Part shown: positions 1 to 16,654 of the stretch, piece by piece | Layout of the letters: each line of letters begins with the position of its first letter | How positions within the stretch are numbered: position 1 is the stretch's first letter | Program-made: the position numbers and the translations under genes | Notes under the pieces: model-generated | The model's input: only the letters and a program-made list of their open reading frames with translations | What the model was told of the DNA's origin: nothing | Database searches by the model: none | DNA from: Candolleomyces eurysporus | Lineage: Eukaryota; Basidiomycota; Agaricomycetes; Agaricales; Psathyrellaceae | Assembly: GCA_027579435.1 (NCBI GenBank) | Contig: JANBPK010001485.1 | Location: forward strand, 1 to 64,000 | Reading direction: 5' to 3' | Length of the DNA stretch: 64,000 nucleotides

Positions 1-2912
1 ACGACACCGGAATGAACAGCAACCGCGTCCCCAGGTTAGGACTGCCCGTGCTATGTCCCCTGTAAGGGCTAGACAGGGAGAGTCAAGCCTCACTCAGCGG
101 CGACGATCAGTAGACGCCCCACCTCAGCCAACACCAGCACCCAAGCCAACAGTCCACAAGCCCTTCTATCGTCCGCGGCCTCTTTGGTGGGTCGCCCTTC
201 TCTATTAGTTTACGAGGCCTGTTATTCATGTTTCATACAGGCTCGTCCCATTTGCGATCGTTGCAGCCCTTGTCGTAAGTGCCTCGTAATTTCATCTTTG
301 TAATTAGTGCGCTGAACAATTATGCAGCGCGGCATGACGCTGGCGCCTCGCGTCGAAGTCTACACCCAGCTTGCATGCTATTCGCTGCATGTACCACATG
401 AACCCCAATTCGACGCCTTGGATCTATCCCTACAGCGCATCGAATGGCACCCTTCGTCCGCCATCTCGCTCTACTCATCCCTTGACCCCCTCGGACCCCA
501 CCTCTTTCCCTCTCCTCTGGTCCAGCGCAATGCTTCTACTCCCGCTTTCGTTGCAACCTTGCCCGATCCACGCACTCTTCCTCCACGCCGTTGTCTCACC
601 GACCCTGCAGTGCAGGCCTCCGCTGCCCGTCTCCAAACTGTCATGACGACCACAATGGGCCTGCTCTCCGCGCTCACTACCTCCTTCTGGAACCGCTTCT
701 CCCAATCTCATGGTCGCACCAAAGTCCTTGCAATCTCAACTTTCGGTTTGTTCTTCACCGATCTCGTCTTTATCCTCACTTCGACTCCGACATTGCCATG
801 GCCGCTATCCCTCATCAGCTACGATGCTGCTTGGGACCGGCACAAGCACCATATTCTTATTGTCGGACCTATTGTGGAAGGACTTTTGGGAGGATGGACG
901 ACCTTGCAAAGTGCCACGAGTGCATATATCAGTGATTGCACGAGTGTCGGAAGTCGTGCCGGGATCTTCTCAAGGTTCACCGGCGTGTTCTATGTTGGGT
1001 TTAGCATCGGACCGATGATTGCTGGATGGATCGTGAGGCATCCCGAGCTATTAAATTTCCCCCCTTCACACAGCTCGAGTGGCGGATTCACCATGAAGAA
1101 GCCCGCGGACATCCAGAGTGTAACAGGGGTGTTTTGGATCGCCATCATTTGCAGCTTCGTCAACTTTTTGTTGGTGCTATTCGTCTTCCCGGAATCGTTG
1201 GACAAAGCGAAACAGCAGCAGGCGAGGGATTTGAAAGGCAAGGGTCGAGCAGAGGAGGACGAATCAGATCCTACTTCCCCTATCTTGCTCTCCGTGGAAG
1301 ATGTGGAAGGTGTTGGAGGTGGAGATGGGTTTGTGGATGTTGAAGAGCTTCGAAAGACGCCGATCTCTCCCTCGTCATCGTACAACGAATTGTCACGTCG
1401 CCCCTCGATCCAGAGCCAACCGGGTTCTTCATCCTCAGCTGTCTTCCCTGTCGAGCAGGAACCCCAGCAGCGAACCATCTTTTCGCATCTCACCCGTCCA
1501 TTCAGCGTTTTCTTCCCCGTGTACATCTACATGCCCACCCGGAATTCGCTTACTCTCAAACGCCGACCCGACTTTTCTATCACCTTCCTTGCGGTCGGCC
1601 TCTTCTTCTGGATGCTAAGCACTGGCGCGTACCAGATCAAGTATCTATACGCCGAGCATACGTATGGATGGGGTGCAGCGGAGCTGAGTTGGTACATCTC
1701 GTGGATGGGATTTGTCAGGGCGGTGGTTCTTTTGGCTGGAATCCCTTGGGTCATCAAGGTTTTCAAGCCCAAGATGACTCCCGAAGCTGAAGGAAGTTCG
1801 GAAGATGACGGAAAGGGAAAGCAGAGGGCCGATGAGGAGGGGCAAGTGAACGACGGAAAGAAGGCAGCGCCGACGCGGCTCCAGTTGGGCAAGACGATCC
1901 GGTTCGACCTCCGACTCGCGCGCGCTTCGCTCCTTGTGGATTTGATATCTAATATCCTTATTGCCGCCACGCCGTCGCCTTCGTACCGCATGAGCCTCAA
2001 GTACTACCTCGCTGGTCGCCATGGAAGTCCTATGAACAATCCTGATACGCACGCGCAGAGCCAGGCGCTGTTCGTCCTCGCCAGTTCGCTGAGCGCTTTG
2101 GGCGGTGGGCTTGTACCCGCTGTGCATAGTCTGGCACTCTGCATTGTCCAGGCGCGGAGCATCGCACCAGATTTCGGGATCAACGATTATGGGCTTCGCG
2201 ATTTGGATGATGTGCATTCGGCGGAGGATGGATATGGAAGTCTGAGAGACGAGTCGAGAGCGTCGAGTATCAGGTCGAGCGTTGGTTCTTCCACGTCGGC
2301 TACGACTCCGTTCGTACCGACACCAGCCCCACCCGTTGATTCGGGAACTCTGTTTGGGGCTTTTGCGCTCCTGCAGGCTCTTGCGCAGATGATCTTGGCC
2401 CCGATGCTCTTTGGTCTTGTCTACTCGTCGACTGTGTCCAACTACCCCAAGACGGTGTTCATCTTGTCCTCGGGGTTGCTGATGGTGAGCATCTTGTTGA
2501 TGCTGGTGGTGAAGAACCCGGTGGGGGAGGTCAGGGTCGAGAGGAGGGATAAGAGGTTTAGGAGGAGGATGGAGAGGGAGAGTATGACAGGATTGAGGGG
2601 GAAGGCGCTCCATTATCAGCACCAGCAACAACTTCTTCAACCCCAGCATGTTGGAGGGAAGAAGCTAGGCGGGGTTGTCAACGCAAAGATCAATGCGAAC
2701 CGTGCCAAGGCGATGATGGTGAAAGAGAGGGAGATCCAGAAGAGGTGGGAGGCGGATATCGAGAGGAGGGGGAGGTCGAGGAGGAATAAAGATTTGAGAG
2801 GAGGAGCTGTGCCTGTGTCGATTGCGTTCTNATGGTGATANGGGGACTGAGAGCGGGGGAAGGGAATGGGGGTTCGGTAGATGAGAGCGCGTTGGTTATG
2901 AGGTCGGCTTAA
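1..2912 (+). CDS. MFS transporter, 5' partial
   Basis: Membrane transporter of the major facilitator superfamily, substrate unknown. Reading is open from the left edge (codons start at position 2), so the true start may lie outside; the first in-window ATG in frame is at 53. Exons are <1-186, 241-274 and 328-2912. The splices join to an N-terminal helix ending in RGMTLAPRVEVYTQLAC, a pattern typical of fungal MFS proteins. Several hydrophobic helices follow, with SHGRTKVL in the loop after TM2, then a long Ser/Glu-rich central loop and a second helix block. The C-tail is long, basic and Gln-rich, with no helix. Two N characters at 2831 and 2841 break the frame near the end. Omitting both leads to a stop at 2910-2912 and matches the paralogous relic at 10.1-11.1 kb. 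The family call is firm; the transported compound is not known. Confidence 0.85.
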
Positions 2913-2934
2913 GGCGNTTTGGCGGAATTTGCGC

Positions 2935-3420
2935 AGTTGTCGGCCTGCCATCTGGAGTTGAGCACAATTCGCTGCCCGTTGGACAACCCCGAGGACCGAT
3001 CCGAGCGGTCAGGTGAACGCCCCTTCGGCATCCAGCCTCTCTCTTCCGACCTGAAGTGCGTCGTTTTTCGTTTTCATTCATTTCTTGTATTATTAGTAGT
3101 AGACATCATCATCCATTACATCCAATCATGCATTTGTCTCCCACCCACATTCATTTCTCATCCGTATATATATCTATTCGCTTTCTCCTTGTACTATTTT
3201 GTATACTAGCTACCCTACGCTCGTTTTTTTTTTTGCTATTGCTGCATAGTGCTTCATCCTCATCCTCATCATTTCTGAAGTTCGCCTAGAGTATCGTAAC
3301 TTAGCTTCGCTTTTGTTTACGCACCATCATCAATTTCACTCTTAATACAGTGCATATATGTTTCGGTAATAATTAGTGCGATCTGGTTTCTGGTTTCGAT
3401 TTAATAACTTGAACGTTGGA
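2935..3420. repeat. MFS 3'-flank sequence, present in several copies
   Basis: Non-coding sequence downstream of the MFS stop. Related copies lie at about 11155-11590 (long, colinear), 5895-6050 and 14220-14350 (short, diverged). The shared core includes a 'tggagttgag' block, a 'ccgagcgg' block and 'ccgacctgaag'. It marks segmental duplications of this region, and no transposon termini were seen at its ends. Confidence 0.65.
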
Positions 3421-4640: not shown

Positions 4641-4759
4641 CCCACCTACTAGAAAATACCATCATGCGCTCGTTTGATTTTGTCTGGCCGCCGTACCACT
4701 GGATACTCTCCATGAACCACTTCCGAGCCTCTCCCCGTCTACTAGCTATGCAATGCCCC

Positions 4760-5420
4760 TCTTGGGCCCAACCTCAATTTCTATCAGCTCACTTGAGCGG
4801 CTGCACGCATCGATTTGGCAAACCAGTCGCTAATAAATTTCTATTAAGCCTCAAGTTGATAACATTTTGGTCCCGTTCCCGGAAGCGCCCCACAACAAGC
4901 ACTTCTCGATCGTGCTTATACTCCTCTTGGAAGTCTCAGATGCCGACGATTAAATCCTCGCACACCATATTAAGCGTGCCCGGTCTGTCGACCCTGCAGG
5001 CTGTCTTCATTTGTTGTTTCTTCCGATTGAAAGGCGTTGGTCCGAGCCTTTAATCTTGTCTGCGTTGGTGGCAATACTCAGCATGTTTTCTTCCACTTGG
5101 GCCCTGTTTCTTGCGGTTTTTGCCCATTTTGTGTGCGAAGAAAAGAGATTTTAGAAGACACGCCGTAGCCTCTAGTAGACTTCCAACATACTAAACACGC
5201 CTCTAACATCCTTACAATTCTAGCTAACCAAATCAACAGGCTCCATTGCTGGGAAAGATATCGATGGATCCTAAGAAGGGCCTGCAAAATGATGAGAGCC
5301 CCGAGTTATTCAGGAAACCAATTAGATGCAAAGGTGAAATGGGACCCTCTTCTTCTCCGCCGCGATCCGGATATGTGGGCCATTCACGAGACTTGGATTG
5401 GGAATCAAATGTGCAGATAC
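4760..5420 (+). pseudogene. Relic of subtype-2 membrane protein gene (3' part)
   Basis: Decayed 3' half of the two-TM membrane protein family. It aligns with exon 3 of the intact genes at 12.4-14.0 and 17.1-18.8 kb from the 'LNF..L.RAAA.IDL..PA.NNFLL' region onward. Recognisable stretches are PGLSTLQAVFIC and the following FRLKGVG, then a frame-shifted last helix. A relic of the final exon follows at about 5222-5400. Stops and frameshifts break the reading frame, and no 5' exons were found upstream. The exon-4 relic resembles the subtype-2 tail (DPKKGLQNDES), so this was a subtype-2 copy. Homology runs on into the OPT relic downstream, as it does behind the intact subtype-2 gene at 17.1 kb. 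Confidence 0.75.
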
Positions 5421-6519: not shown

Positions 6520-9500
6520 ATGCGATTGCTAAGATACCTGCCTCCTCTCGAATACCCTATCACACGCCAATTCGAGTCTGTCTCGTGGGCAGCTTTCGCA
6601 TACGTCTGCGGACTATTGGGGGGTATCCTACTCTGTGTTATCAACAGTCAGTCAGAGATCTTGGGCTTACCTGCGGCAGCTGCTTGCTAACAACTGGTGA
6701 TTTGGTCGAACAGTTCCTTTGGTTGGCTACGACCCAATCACTGCCTTCCGCGGGGACTTCAATGTCACTCAACGATTCTGGTTCGACCGTTTAATCCCAA
6801 TCATGGCCCAAAAACCTGGCACTCGTTGCGACGACCATGTATTCAACGTCGGCGAGTCCCTTGTTACCAACGTCTCCCTCTTTGAATGGAAAGTCAAAGG
6901 AGTGTATAGGCCAAATGCAGGAGGATCGGGGTTCTCGTACAGAGGAGAGACCCTCGACAACTGCGACATCCATCAGGTAGCCCTGAACGGTGATCTCAGA
7001 ACATGGACGCTGGACGGGAGTATGTGGTTGTACTGCAATAGCTCATCTGAGTCGAGCAAAGGCCATAGTCAGCCACTGGAGCTGGCAGGCGTCGCAAGCT
7101 TCGGAGTGTCCGCACTTCCAGCCAGGCGGACGAATTTTCAGCGTATGGTCAGATCCCCTGCACAGGATAAACTTGCTCTTACGATCGAGAGACTGTGAGT
7201 CCCGTTTGCGTCCTTGTTCCGAGGCATTTTGACTCGGGTACATTGTACCTGGGTCAGAGGCGCCAAGCCGGTGCACTGCCGGTCGCATCACTTCGGCCGG
7301 GTTTTCCCGCTTTTCCTGTTTCTTTGCATCGGCCCGAGTTTCCGTTCTGCAGACGGTCGCTGTCGCACACCCACTTCACCGGTTCACCTGTTCCTCTGTA
7401 TTCAGAGCATGCCCTCGGCCTTTAATACAGCGTTCAACATGAGCATCAGTTAGTACTATATGTAAATATCAATGCCNAAAAAAAAGGAATGTGGAACTGT
7501 AGGTCGGTCAAGTCCTAAGTCACCCTCTACTCGAGTTTCACAGTGCGGCGGTCGCCATGCAGCGATGCCTGCCAAAGTAACCCCCCGGCATACCTTTCAT
7601 TGCAGGAGTGTACGTGCACATACCATCAACTGAGCGCATTTTTGAAGCCCTGACGTTTGCCGTTTCTGCTGTTTTCTCTCTCTTTCAGGAGCGTAGCCTC
7701 CACGTTCGTTCGAGGGACGTTGTTGACAGAGGCAGGTGCCCAGGTGTGTGTGTCAAATTTTCTATCGGTCTCCCGTTTACAGAGACGTATTACTATCAGG
7801 CGGCGTCTGTCACAGTCACTCAAGCCTTGTCCACTGTCATGCCCATGCTACTCGCTTCCACCAATACCGCCCAGACGAACACCATTTCCTCAAGCACTGT
7901 TTACTGCTACTACCCGAATTTGTGCTACAGTGCGGTTGGACTTCAATCAAACCTCGCACGGTACGTATTGCCGGTTCGGGACGATGCTCCTTTCAAGATC
8001 AGGAACGACAACCAGGGATGGGACGCTCGGTGTGGAGCGACATGCCCTTCACAATACAGAAAGACACAAAGCGATGTGGGAGTTGCATCGTTTAGGTGGA
8101 ATCCTGTTGTGACCGTCCCCGATTCTCGTCATTTGGCAACTGATTACTTGGTCGCAGAGACTCTCTGCAAGTGGCACTTGTCAAAAGCATGCCGGAACAA
8201 AAATTGTGCTCATTACAATCCGGATCCACGTCGTAGTAGGATGTGTTAATTAAATATTCATGATATAAGATGAAGAATTTTAATTTATTTACAACGCGCT
8301 CACCGGTTCAAGGGAGCCAATGAGAGGCAAAATGCCTCGGACAACCTGCCGCGCACAGCGACGGCCCACTTCCAATGTAAATGTGACTTTACTAACAACC
8401 GCCGTCGAAATCGGACAAAGACTTGCTTTGGCAGCTTCTGATTGGAGCACCAGATTCCATGAAGCCTACACCCGAGCACCCAATAATACGGGTGTCGTCG
8501 CTTACTCACTTCTTGCACGGTACCCCTTCTGTCCTGCATCCTTGGGCACCACGGATCCCTGTGCTACCAAACCTCCCACAAGTAACATCACTGTCTCTGC
8601 TGCCATCCTGGTAGATCAGACCTGTGGGAAGTGGCCGTTGCTTTGCACGGCAGTGGTCCGAGGCATTTTGCCTCCCCACTTATTGTGTGCTCAGACAGGG
8701 AAGCAAGAGGACCATGAGGAGACAGGCCAAGGTGAGCCCAAGAAAGGGAAGCGGGAAACGCCGACGGAAAACAGCGGTGCCGATGTTGGTTCCTGCACAT
8801 GCCGCGCGTCCATCTTGGCGCCTGGAAACTGCGTGTATGAACCCGAGTCAAAATGCCTCGGAACTATTCACCCTCCCGCAGCCCTCTCCTCCCATAGTCA
8901 TCATCGCATTAGCGATCCCACCATGGTATTCAACATGACGGATATTGCTCCTGTAATCAATTTCCTTCAGCTTGCTCGGGCGGCGGCACACATAGACCTG
9001 GGAAACCCAGCCCCAAACAATTTCCTGTTGAACCCTCAGTTTACGGATAATGTTCTGGCTTCAAGATTTCCAGAAAATCCCGTGACAAACGCATCCCAGT
9101 CGCGTCTTTATTCGGCATGGAAATCCCAAATTCACCCAACAAATGGTGAATCGTATCCACCGTTCATTGTAATAGGCCCCTCCACTTTGCAGGCCGTCTT
9201 CGTATGCCATCTATTCAAGTTGAAGAGCTTTGGGTCGCTGGTTGTCTCGGTCTTGGTGGCCACGCTGAGCATGTGGTCTACAGCGTGGGGTTTGGCAATG
9301 NTTTTTTGCTGCGTGCTATGTGAGGAAAAAAAAATGGAGATATTGGTGCGTCACCATTTCAACGAGACCCGATCTCGCCTTGGCTGAAATACTGATTCCT
9401 GTGGCGCAACTCTAGCGAACCAGTGTGAAGGTCACATGCAGGTTCAGGCGAACCCGATGGTTGGCGGCTCATCGGCAGGTTCTGGGTTACCCGCGGGCAC

Positions 9501-9709: not shown

Positions 9710-10030
9710 TTTGACCGCTCATATCTGATTACGAACTCCTTAACAGGCTGTGGTGGATAATGTCACAATGGCACCACGCCAGAGGTCTGCCTGCTGTCGA
9801 CTCACAGAACACAACGGTGTGATATCATGGGGTTACATTCTCGGGGTTCTGAAAGTTGTCATTCTCGCCATCGCCAAGGTGTCAGCCAGTGTCGCTTCAG
9901 TCAGTATGCAGTGCGCTGACTGGTATCGTGCGCAGCTGCCTCGTTGGGGTACGAACCGACGACCGTATTCAAAGCCAACTTCAGTGCTACTCAACCCTTC
10001 TGACTTGACAACTTTGTGCCATTCACCACG
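9710..10030 (+). pseudogene. Relic of subtype-2 gene, 5' part
   Basis: Decayed promoter-proximal region, exon 1 and start of exon 2 of a subtype-2 family gene. The 5' flank (about 9710-9805) matches the flank of gene D (about 16930-17020), sharing 'aacaggctgtggtg'. The first helix (ILGVLKVVILAIAKV) and the exon-2 start (LVGYEPTTVFKANFSATQ) are recognisable, but the frame is lost. Similarity stops abruptly at a palindrome (10028-10062), where the duplicated MFS tail begins shortly after. Confidence 0.7.
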
Positions 10031-10077
10031 CCCGTACTCACATTAAATGTGAGTACGGGCGTCAAATGTGACATTTG
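10028..10077. repeat. Two adjacent palindromes at a duplication breakpoint
   Basis: Arms 10028-10043 and 10047-10062 (ACGCCCGTACTCACAT and its exact complement) surround a 3-nt loop. Immediately after, 10063-10077 (CAAATGTGACATTTG) forms a second palindrome with a 1-nt centre. They sit between the truncated family relic and the duplicated MFS tail that starts about 50 nt further on. Confidence 0.75.
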
Positions 10078-10126: not shown

Positions 10127-11133
10127 GGTTCGTTGTGGATTTGATATCCAATATTCTTCTTGCCTATACACCGTTGCTTTCGTATCTCATAGGCCTCAAG
10201 TATCTCGCTGGTCGTCATGGAAGTCCTATAGGTAGTCCCGACACGCACGCGCAGAGCAAGGCGCCGTTCGTCCTCGCCGGTTCGGTGAGCATTCTTGGGG
10301 GTGGGCTCGTACTCGCTGTGCACAGTCTATCACTCTGCATTGTCCAGGCGCGGAGCATCGCACCGGATTTCGGGATCAACGATTAATTGGACCCAGTCCG
10401 GCTTATGACTATGACTAAGACTATGGGCTTCGCGATTTGGATGATGTGCTTCGGCGGAGGATGGATATGGGAGTCTGAGAGACGAGTCGAGAGCGTCGAG
10501 TATCAAGTCCAGCGTTAGTTCTTCCACTTTCGCTACGACTCCATTCGTACCGACACCAGCCCCATTTGTTGATTCGGGAATTCTGTTTGGGGCTTTTGCG
10601 CTCCTGCAGGCTCTTGCGCAGTTGATCTTGGCACCGATGCTCTTTGGTCTTGTCTACTCGTCGACTGTCCAAGACGGTGTGCATTTTGTCCTCGGGACTG
10701 ATGGTGAGCATCCTTCTGATGCTGGTTGTGAAGAACCCGGTGGGAGAGGTTAGGGTTGAGAGGAGGGATAAGAGGTTTAGGAGAGGGAGAGCATGACAGA
10801 ATTGAAGGGGAAGGCGCTCCATTATCAGCGCCAGCACGTTCAGCAGCAACAATACCTTCAACCCCAGCATGTTGGAGGGAAGAAGCTAGGCGGGGTTGTC
10901 AGCACGAAGATCAATGCGAATCGAGCCAAGGCGATGATGATGAAAGAGAGGGAGACCCAGAGGAGGTGGGAGGCAGATATTGAGANGGGGGGGGGAGGTC
11001 GAGGAGGAATAAAGATTTGAGACGAGGAGCTGTGCCTGTGTCGATTGCATTCGACGGGGATAGGGGACTGAGAGCGGGGGAAGGGAGTGGGGGTTCGATG
11101 GATGAGAGCGCGTTGGTTACGAGGTCGGCTTAA
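10127..11133 (+). pseudogene. Truncated second copy of the MFS transporter (3' half)
   Basis: Homologous to about 1930-2912 of the intact MFS gene, from VDLISNIL through the C-terminal basic tail, ending at the equivalent TAA (11131-11133). It lacks the first half of the gene. Frame breaks occur at the 'ttaattggacccagtc' insertion after 10383 and at deletions near 10670, 10700 and 10785. An N at 10986 precedes a nine-G run. There is no promoter or start, so it is not expected to be functional. Homology continues through the 3' flank to about 11590. Confidence 0.85.
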
Positions 11134-11900
11134 GGCGTTTGGCGGAATTCGCGCAGTTGTCGGCCTGCCATCTGGAGTTGAGATCGCTGACCGCTCGACA
11201 GCCCCGACGATCGATCCGAGCGGTCAGGTGAGCGCCCCTCACTGCATCAAATTTCTCTACCGACCTGAAGTGCATGCGTTGTTTCGTGTTCTCTTATTTC
11301 TTGAATTATTAGTAGTAGACGTCATCCTCCATACATCCAACCATGCATTCATCCAACCCACATTCATTAATCATTTCTCATGTGTATATATATCTTATAT
11401 ATGAGCTACACTACGCTTGTTTTTGTTATTCAATTCGCTGCATGGTTGCTTCATCCTCATCCTCATCATCTTTGAAGTTCGCTTAGACTATCGTAACTTA
11501 GCTTCGGTTTTGTTTACGCAGCATTTCGGTTATGATTTCAATTAAGTTTAACAACGTGAACTTTGGACGTTGAAGTTTGAGTACCCAGGTTCATGTCGGG
11601 CCCCAAATTCCGAGATCGGTCATGACTCGGAGGAGCGCCAGCATTACGATTTAGTCAAACACAACGTACCTTGCCCGCTGCTGCACCGTGGCTCCTTTCC
11701 TCCGTGGAGTTCTACTTCAAGCTGGGAATGTCTCTCCATTGGTAGTCACTCCTATCGGCGTCGTTCAGCTATCGATGCTGGCGAGCGTTTCTGCCGCGTC
11801 TAGCGTCTTCCATTGACAGCCAGCATGCTGGAGGTGGTCTTATGATCCTCGTTCCCGCTTGCCACTCCCGCTCAACTCTCCAACCTCGCCTCGTGTACTA
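11134..11900. repeat. Duplicated MFS 3' flank with the MITE empty site
   Basis: Colinear with 2913-4300 minus the MITE. At 11691-11698 the single GCTCCTTT, flanked by 'ctgcaccg' on the left and 'ggagttctacttcaagct' on the right, corresponds exactly to the unoccupied target of the MITE at 3573-4073. The stretch around 3425-3530 is replaced here by unrelated sequence. No gene is visible. Confidence 0.75.
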
Positions 11901-12397: not shown

Positions 12398-13969
12398 ATG
12401 CCATTGAAGGTCCCTCCCCTCGAATACCCCATAACTCGTCAATTTGGCTCTGTATGGTTGACTTCCTTGGCCTATGTTCTCGGTTTTCTGGCAATTGCTA
12501 TCCTTGCGATTGCCAATGGTCAGTCGCTATCGCTTTGTGTCGACTGTGCGCTTATTCGTATGCCGGGTAGTCGCTCTGGTAGGGTACGACCCGACGACCG
12601 TCTTCCAAGCCAACTTCAATGCCACCCAAACCTTCTGGTTTGACCGCTTTATACCGTTTTTCGCTCAAACCCCAGGCACCCTCTGTGACACACACGTCTT
12701 CAATGTTGGCGAGTCTATGGTGACCAATAGCTCTCTTTTTGAGTGGAAGGTTCAGGCGGTATATCAACCTAATGCAGCGGAATCAGGGTTCTCGTACAGG
12801 GGAGAGACCCTGGACCACTGTGATGTTACGCAAGTGGCACTGAGCGGTGATATTAGGACGTGGACTATAGAAGGTAATATGTATCTCTATTGCAACGCTC
12901 AATCGCAGGGAGGAGGAAACAATCTGGAAATAGCCGGCGTTGCGAGCTTTGGCGTTTCAGCCCTTCCAGCAAGACAGACCAATTTCCAGAGAATGTCGAA
13001 ATCAGCTTCGCAGGACAGTGTTGCTGCTACTATTGAGACATTGTAGGTCACCCCCGTTTCTATTATCGAGTAAATCTAATGATTCGACTATCACTGGAAG
13101 ATTTTCCCTGGCCGCTATCGACCTGGGGACTCGAGTCTACGAAGCGTATATTCGAACAACACCCAACAACACAGGCCTTGTTGCCTTCTCCGTTCTTGCA
13201 AATTTTCTTTTCTGTCCCCCAACCCTTGCTGCAATGGATTCATGTGCTACTACCAACTCGAATCCTTTCATTGGGTTCAACGGTTCCTCAGCCATAACAG
13301 GGGAAAACATCATCCTACCCCTCAACGTTGTGACCGACATCGCCAATGTTACATGGCCGCTTCATTATGAACTGGGCGAAGAACTTCTCGGGCCAATCCT
13401 CAACTTCGCGCAGCTCACTCGAGCTGCCGCACACATCGATTTAGGCAATCCAGCCGCTAACAATTTTCTATTGAATCCTCAGATTGTTGATAACATCTTG
13501 GTCTCCTCATTCACGGAAACCCCCATAACAAGCGCTTCTCAATCGCGCTTATACTCGGCTTGGAAGTCTCAGATGAATCCCACGATTCGATCCCCGTACC
13601 CCAAACTAAATGTACCTGGCCCGTCAACCCTACAGGCAGTCTTCATTTGTCGTTTCTTCCGATTGAAAGGCATCGGGTCTTTGATCGTGTCTGTGTTGGT
13701 GGCAACACTCAGCATGTTTTCTTCTGCTTGGGCCCTGCTTCTTGCGGTTGCTGCCCATGTTGTGAAGAAGGGAGATAAAGAAGGTATGGTGTAATCTATA
13801 ACAGCTTTCTAAAGCCATGAGTCACGTTTCTGACATTCTTACGATTCTAGCTAACTGCTGCGAAGACCATCAACGAGGTCCATTGCTGGGAAGGATAGAT
13901 CCTAAGGAGGGCCTACAAGACGACAAGTCCACGAGTTCTTACCAACACTCAATGCAGATGCGAAGCTGA
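12398..13969 (+). CDS. Two-TM membrane protein family, subtype 2, copy B
   Basis: Function unknown. Exons 12398-12518, 12571-13042, 13101-13783 and 13851-13969 sum to 1395 nt (464 residues). A cytoplasmic N-terminus with PPLEYPITRQF leads into TM1 (about residues 22-42). A conserved extracytoplasmic domain starting VALVGYDPTTVF carries sequons such as NATQ and conserved cysteines in GTLCDTH, DHCDV, LYCNA, LFCPP and DSCATT. Then come a PGPSTLQAVF block, TM2 (about residues 380-410) and a charged tail. The intron-2 acceptor is placed at 13100 because it lies at the same place in all four copies, behind a CTAAT-like branch site. Closest to gene D. It may act with the subtype-1 protein encoded next to it, but this is inferred from gene order only. 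Confidence 0.8.
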
Positions 13970-15098: not shown

Positions 15099-16654
15099 AT
15101 GCTACTGCTGAAAAACCTACCTCCTCTCGAATACCCTATCACGCGCCCCTTTGAGTCTGTCCGGCTGACCGCGATTGGATACATAGGCGGCTTTTTCGGG
15201 ATTATATTGCTCTGTGTTATTAACAGTCGGTCGAGCTCCTGCGTCTATCTACTGCAGCTGTTTTTCTAACACCTGGTCGAATAGTTGCGCTGGTTGGCTA
15301 CGACCCAACCACCGTCTTCCATGCCAACTTCAATATCACTCAAGAATTCTGGTTTGACCGCTTTATTCCCTTCATTGCTCAAACACCTGGCACACTTTGC
15401 GATGCGCACGTATTTAATGTCGGCGAGTCCCTCGTTACCAACGTTTCCCTCTTCGAATGGAAAGTCGAAGGAGTATACAGGCCAAATGCAGGAGGATCAG
15501 GGTTCTCGTACCGTGGAGAGACACTCGACAACTGCGACATCCAGCAAGTGGCGCTTAACGGTGATATCAGGACATGGACGTTGGACGGGAGTATGTGGTT
15601 GTATTGCAATAGCTCATCGAGCGAGGGCAACGGTCAATCGTTGGAGTTGGCGGGCGTCGCAAGCTTTGGAGTTTCCGCACTTCCGGCCAGACAGACGAAT
15701 TTTCAGCGCATGACCAGGTCGCCGGCGCAAGACAGTCTTGCTATTACGATCGAGAGACTGTGAGCACCGTTTACATCCTTGTAAAAGTGATTTAACTGAC
15801 AAGATCGGACAAAGATTTGCATTGGCAGCCGTTGATATTGGCGCCAGAGTCTACGAAGCCTACGTCCGAACGCCCAATGACACTGCCCTCGTCTCTTATT
15901 CTCTTTTCGCGCGGTACCCTTTCTGCCCTGCATCCTTGGGGACCACGAATCCTTGTGCTTTCGACCCTCCCGCGGTTGATATCGCTGTCTCCACTGCCAT
16001 TCTGGCAGATAATACTATCCAACCTCCAGCAGCCGTCCTCCCTCACAACTACAACCGCATTAGCGACCACACTATTCTATACAACATGACGGATATTTCC
16101 CCTGTGATCAATTTCCTTCAGCTTGCTCGAGCAGCGGCTCTGATAGACCTGGGAAACCCAGCCCCAAACAACTTCCTGTTGAACCTTCAGTTTACGGATA
16201 ATGTTTTGGCTCCGAGATTTCCGGAGACACCCGTGACGTTTGCGTCTCAGTCGCGGTTGTATTCGGCGTGGAAGTCCCAAACCGACCCAGCGGACAATAG
16301 TTCGTATCCAGTGTTGAGGGTACCAGGCCCATCGACGCTTCAGGCTGTCTTCAACTGCCATTTATTCAAGTTGAAGGGCCCCGGGTCGTTGTTTGTCTCA
16401 GTGTTGGTGGCTACGCTGAGCATGTTTTCTTCAGCGTGGGGTCTGGCGCTCATTTTCGCTGCATACTTTGTGAAGAAAAGAGATGGAGATAGTGGTGCGT
16501 CACCACTTTAATCTTTAGTTTCGCCTTGCCTGATTCCTGTCGTCTAATTCTAGCGAACCAATGTCAAGGACACGTCCGGGCTCAGACGGGTTTGGAGAAG
16601 GAGAAAGAAGACGATTCAATGCTTCCTCGCTCATCGATAGATTACGGAACGTAG
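15099..16654 (+). CDS. Two-TM membrane protein family, subtype 1, copy C
   Basis: Function unknown. Exons 15099-15225, 15285-15759, 15815-16494 and 16554-16654 sum to 1383 nt (460 residues). It has the same plan as the other copies: LPPLEYPITR at the start, TM1, an extracytoplasmic domain with conserved cysteines, a PGPSTLQAVF block, TM2 and a charged tail rich in Glu and Lys in the last exon. Subtype-1 markers are YRPNAGGSGFSYRGETLDNC and SMWLYCNSSS, where subtype 2 has YQPNAAESGFSYRGETLDHC and MYLYCN. This is the cleanest subtype-1 copy, with no insertion or frame break, so it serves as reference for the damaged copy A. Gene D follows after about 490 nt on the same strand. Confidence 0.8.

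Follow-up and report, generated by a model that had tools for sequence, protein, structure and literature searches.

A probable Helitron2-type transposon within a coding exon of a tandem gene copy in Candolleomyces eurysporus, with the reading frame left open

The window analyzed here, a stretch of 64,000 nt from the start of Candolleomyces eurysporus contig JANBPK010001485.1, carries a small tandem gene family. Copy A occupies positions 6520 to 9300, copies B, C, and D start at 12398, 15099, and 17148, and a fragment of the family lies at about 4740 to 5134. Copy C (15099 to 16508, plus strand) is intact and lacks both of the mobile elements found in copy A, so that it preserves their empty sites. 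A second cluster of the family, comprising copies F, G, and a third, is carried by contig C838. A protein search with a frame of copy B showed that the family is similar to transmembrane proteins from agaric mushrooms, with the top match in Ephemerocybe angulata (49% identity, 81% query coverage). A Pfam search of five frames (one from copy A, two from the element in its intron 2, and two from copy B) returned no families. Compared with the other copies, copy F (L066, about 782 to 905, contig C838) has a disrupted frame in exon 1, so it is either a pseudogene or affected by an assembly error.

Copy A lies on the plus strand and is composed of exon 1 (6520 to 6646), intron 1 (6647 to 6713; 67 nt, GTCAGT..CAG, with a CTAAC motif), exon 2 (6714 to 7194), intron 2 (7195 to 8420), and exon 3 (8421 to 9300). 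Intron 2 retains the donor GTGAGT, the branch motif CTAAC, and the acceptor AAG. It is 1,226 nt long, versus 55 to 65 nt in copies B, C, D, F, and G, because a mobile element (element 1) sits inside it. A second element of the same family (element 2) lies within exon 3. The C-terminal frame of copy A past 9301 is uncertain because an N interrupts a run of T at that position.

Element 2 spans 8621 to 8863 on the minus strand, as delimited by repeats in its own genome, aligned boundaries, and empty sites. Its 5' end is at 8863 and its 3' end at 8621, with a host A (8620) and a host C (8864) on either side. Copy A reads GATCAGA, the insert, and then CTATTC, whereas the sequence is GATAATACTATCC in copy C and GACAATACTATTC in copies F and G; one A (a T at the 5' start on the element strand) can be assigned to either host or element. 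Copies B, C, D, and G align across the site without the insert, as does copy F, and the insert has no counterpart in any of these five. The net insert of 243 bp (81 × 3) interrupts an ACT codon between its first and second bases and adds exactly 81 codons to a frame, 8320 to 9387, that is open across the insert. The first-pass annotation had proposed that an element of about 245 bp interrupts this exon and adds about 81 open codons; comparison with the empty sites of copies C, F, and G bears out both statements, with the size adjusted to 243 bp. The family copies vary in the part of the protein where the insert lies, and the 81-residue segment drew three candidates from a protein database, none at E ≤ 10.

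Searches of the whole assembly (65.85 Mb, 1,296 contigs) place the insert within a dispersed repeat family. It is one of at least 40 places in its own genome (41 matching segments, two of which belong to one copy), and the 39 others match it at 77 to 91% identity, some of them only in part. The family ends are TTCCGAGGCATTTTGACTC on one side and, usually, CCACTTCCCACAGG on the other. At two mismatches or fewer, the left-end pattern has 132 genome matches and the right-end pattern 263, with none for either reversed control; the figure of 263 is not a copy number because, on our reading, two mismatches allow the right-end pattern to match the internal repeat as well. From 100 of the 132 left ends and 100 of the 263 right ends, at least 30 same-strand pairs can be formed within 15 kb, 26 of them spaced at 185 to 263 bp and four at 1,953 to 2,827 bp; the pairs of 2,088 and 2,281 bp each share one end with a short pair. 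A variant 3' end, ACCTGTGTGAAGTGGCCGATGC, accounts for 15 of the 100 left-end matches listed genome-wide and points to further subfamilies of the same element. Elsewhere, in L078 (742 to 1863), a short copy of the element and a further element end flank an open frame of 373 codons that includes hydrophobic segments. Pfam returned nothing for this frame or for the others taken from two longer stretches of the family (three frames in all), and a third such stretch (L079) holds no frame of 110 codons.

Element 1 (7217 to 8377, plus strand; 1,161 bp) is inserted in the orientation opposite to that of element 2. It has the same plan and ends, except that its 3' tail is CCACTTCCAATG and not the usual CCACTTCCCACAGG, and two further near-full copies at about 98% identity are present in the genome. 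It carries a 213-codon frame (7608 to 8249) that has no Pfam match and for which a protein database search returned 139 candidates, none at E ≤ 0.001. This frame is possibly a captured fragment.

The ends of the two elements share a distinctive anatomy. On its own (minus) strand, element 2 starts with TTCCGAGGCATTTTGACTCGG; its 5' inverted repeat, TTCCGAGGCATTTTG, lies at 8843 to 8863 (pattern match at 8845 to 8863) together with a predicted hairpin, CCGAG..CTCGG. The second copy of the repeat, CAAAATGCCTCGGA on the element strand, is an exact match to TCCGAGGCATTTTG on the plus strand at 8657 to 8670, 36 bp inside the 3' terminus. Because the 5' copy is terminal and the 3' copy internal, the inverted repeats are asymmetric, and this holds for both elements. 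The last 36 bases of element 2 consist of a hairpin and the tail CCACTTCCCACAGG, with the subterminal hairpin predicted at 8634 to 8651 on the minus strand, 13 nt before the terminus. In single-strand folding, the 5' hairpins have z scores of −4.36 (element 2, 8830 to 8863) and −3.76 (element 1), and the 3' hairpins have z scores of −2.66 (element 2, 8621 to 8682) and −2.77 (element 1). Three of 30 copies have the paired changes CCAAG/CTTGG in the 5' hairpin; these can be explained by CpG decay, and we do not claim covariation.

Insertion leaves the target unduplicated. Among 25 of the 30 copies (L005, L020, L021, L022, and L030 were set aside as duplicated or truncated), identity between the flanks was 0.23 to 0.27, compared with shuffled means of 0.24 to 0.28, for duplication lengths of 2 to 6, 8, and 9 evaluated at one boundary. 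A retroposed SINE was rejected as an explanation, as there is neither a target duplication nor, by eye, a tail. The paralogous empty sites of elements 1 and 2 are both at G^T in element orientation; in 22 of the 25 copies a purine precedes the element, and T follows. The targets of these 25 copies are not the TT or T-rich sites of HINEs, and we therefore call the element Helitron2-type, HINE-like, rather than HINE. Nor does it resemble a canonical Helitron (Helitron1), as CAGG, not CTRR, forms the 3' terminus of 25 of the 30 copies and an inverted repeat is present; depending on the ambiguous T, the 5' start may be TC.

Excerpts of published accounts allow comparison with known systems. In FoHeli and FoHeliNA, Helitron2 elements of Fusarium oxysporum, an asymmetric terminal inverted repeat lies in hairpins, with the 3' repeat about 20 to 40 bp inside the terminus (PMC5148889). 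The family described here likewise has an asymmetric, hairpin-forming repeat and non-autonomous members, but its end sequences are different, and element 2 is only 243 bp long, while the smaller of the two FoHeli non-autonomous types measures 830 bp. Its insertion site is before T and after a purine, whereas FoHeli1 and FoHeli2 are described at TNAT followed by T or A (PMC5148889). In HINE (DINE-1) elements, the non-autonomous Helentrons of arthropods, the subterminal repeats are about 2 to 4 nt from the 5' end and 38 to 60 bp from the 3' end, compared with 1 and 36 here, and the 3' palindrome is 8 to 35 bp from the end, compared with 12 to 13 here (PMC4067079). Targets are unmodified in both; the differences are the lack of a T-rich or TT target and a fungal rather than an arthropod host (PMC4067079). 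HELPO1 and HELPO2 of Pleurotus ostreatus are also basidiomycete elements with a subterminal 3' hairpin, but their ends are T[C/G] and CTRR or CTTG and their targets AT (PMC4289320); the family here has an asymmetric inverted repeat and, in 25 of its 30 copies, CAGG at the 3' end. Among the titles and opening parts of abstracts listed from the open-licence literature, we found no report of this element or of this case.

The genome contains 56 matches to the Helitron_like_N profile, so rolling-circle enzymes are present. Fourteen Rep-bearing stretches (L031 to L044) were examined for family ends. None was found at two mismatches or fewer in L031 to L042, with flanks of up to about 1.5 kb; L043 holds one short element and L044 two copies of the repeat, and the family ends there do not frame the Rep match. 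Likewise, in a hand comparison, no Rep match was framed by a pair drawn from 100 of the 132 and 100 of the 263 listed ends.

We consider it very likely that the insert is a probably young, non-autonomous transposon of the Helitron2 type, HINE-like in its ends, that left its target unduplicated, has an open frame by chance, and would most probably be retained in any transcript. Element 2 would have entered exon 3 on the minus strand, between a host A and a host C and with no duplication of the target, and the open frame would be a coincidence of its length and sequence; any transcript of copy A would most likely yield a product with the 81 extra codons. The terminal anatomy is what suggests rolling-circle movement. 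We infer both retention of the insert in mRNA and the absence of a selected function. Besides the few private substitutions in element 2 (2 of 243), the roughly 98% identity of element 1 to two other copies speaks for youth. Against the Helitron2-type reading stand the failure to find a Rep or helicase gene framed by these ends in the stretches and end pairs examined, a target unlike the T-rich one of HINEs, the deviating 3' tail of element 1, and the distance of the insert from its nearest relatives (91% identity). The insertion is real, and it is probably a recent and fairly ordinary event involving a known kind of mobile DNA. The locus thus offers a well-bounded, probable rolling-circle insertion into a coding exon, and sister genes preserve its empty site. 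It documents as well a short, high-copy family with Helitron2-like anatomy in an agaric-like fungus, two members of which, lying in one gene, reveal the ends.

Compatible with a young Helitron2-type insertion, and not exclusive of it, is a second reading that we regard as possible, with the balance somewhat against it: copy A may be a dying gene in which both insertions cut expression, making the state of the frame irrelevant. The 1.2-kb intron 2, so much longer than the 55 to 65 nt of the five other copies, may hinder expression. A one-base difference between copy A and copy G next to the N at 9301 could be a frame break, but it falls on an uncertain base within a homopolymer run, and copy A has intact splice sites and an unbroken frame as far as 9300. 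With the insert removed, Ka/Ks is 0.24 for copy A versus copy C and 0.27 for copy A versus copy G, compared with 0.19 for copy C versus copy G; a three-way split assigns 0.31 to the branch of copy A, the highest of the three, 0.16 to that of copy C, and 0.21 to that of copy G. Rates for copy F are void because its exon 1 frame break left only 22 codons. These values indicate that copy A has been constrained for most of its history and is perhaps somewhat relaxed.

Whether the 81 codons have been exonised, translated, and kept by selection as something useful is a separate matter, and we think it unlikely. The wholly open frame, the constraint on the rest of copy A (Ka/Ks of 0.24 and 0.27, as above), and the location of the insert in a region that varies among copies all speak for this reading. 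However, only 2 of the 243 positions of the insert carry private substitutions, which would leave no time for selection to show, and its terminal branch in a FastTree tree is 0.025; both values suggest that the insert is young and that its open frame was inherited. The nearest relatives are at most 91% identical, so the direct source is not among the copies found and the insert may be older than the number of private bases suggests. The tree neighbors of the insert, L010 and L012, differ from it in length. The highest branch Ka/Ks of the three falls on copy A, and the segment has no scoring match in the protein database; both argue against a selected product. Across 28 of the 30 element copies (L022 and L030 were excluded, as they were from the tree), the 168 frames include 41 that are open, 17 of them with a length that is also a multiple of three. 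About one insertion in ten would therefore look like this one.

A cut-and-paste MITE in place of a rolling-circle element is less probable still. The element is short, is present in many copies, and has inverted repeats (TCCGAGGCATTTTG), as a MITE would. However, the repeats are asymmetric, with 36 bp lying outside one of them; this outer 3' end is kept in 29 of 30 copies (it is absent in L022), and none of the 25 copies tested has a target duplication.

The first-pass annotation had raised a further possibility, that the element was being exonised or was turning into an intron, and had taken a structure that is in frame whether retained or spliced as the telling sign. The presence of an element in the exon, in frame when it is retained, is borne out; its conversion to an intron is not supported. 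The proposed intron (8624 to 8881, plus strand, GTGGGA..CAG) exists as letters, with GT..CAG boundaries, a length of 258 nt, and its phase preserved, and Introners, in an excerpted account, can carry one splice site and borrow the other from the host (PMC9860276). The element resembles Introners in being a repeated, non-autonomous sequence that could supply one splice site, but it differs from them in its weak donor, in the absence of a branch motif, and in having no visible pattern of copies as introns (PMC9860276). The donor GTGGGA scores 2.6 bits, below every real donor of the family (5.5 to 9.6 bits, on a matrix built from the same 12 family introns, with six donor types, and thus favoring them), and a stronger donor-like site, GTGAGC at 8732 (6.1 bits), lies inside the element. 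No CTRAY motif occurs in 8501 to 9000, whereas 10 of the 12 real family introns have one within their last 60 nt. The 11 family introns without an insertion are 52 to 70 nt long, far shorter than the candidate. On our reading, splicing at 8624 and 8881 would also drop about five host codons and would not restore the protein of the empty site. With splice signals this weak, we judged an Introner unlikely.

Being in frame either way can also be expected by chance at an appreciable rate: among the 30 GT/YAG pairs that span most of the insert, 9 preserve the frame, a count to be set beside the 17 of 168 element frames that are open with a length divisible by three. Only 1 of 30 element copies, element 2 itself, lies in a frame open for more than 100 codons on both sides, so the copies reveal no pattern of gene targeting, as far as a test based on frames can tell when fungal exons are short. 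Intron birth, with the element-end donor at 8624 spliced to the host acceptor at 8881 and the element removed from the mRNA, is accordingly the most doubtful of the readings. In that case a functional 5' splice site would come from the 3' end of a Helitron2-type element lying antisense to the gene and would pair with a host acceptor, with the unspliced form still encoding 81 residues; we regard this as highly improbable. The case shows how readily a structure that is in frame either way arises by chance, and such a structure is weak evidence on intron birth.

Three minor observations concern the surroundings of copy A. The window contains ten single Ns (e.g., at 7477, 9301, and 10986), several of them adjoining homopolymer runs. 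An exon 2 fragment of the gene family at 9929 to 10033 adjoins an inverted repeat at 10029 to 10061 that, by eye, is perfect, with two 16-base arms and a one-base spacer. Finally, a stretch of about 1.4 kb at 1931 to 3327 recurs at 10130 to 11524 as eight repeated pieces with 81 to 95% identity and a spacing of about 8.2 kb, which suggests a segmental duplication together with the gene cluster.
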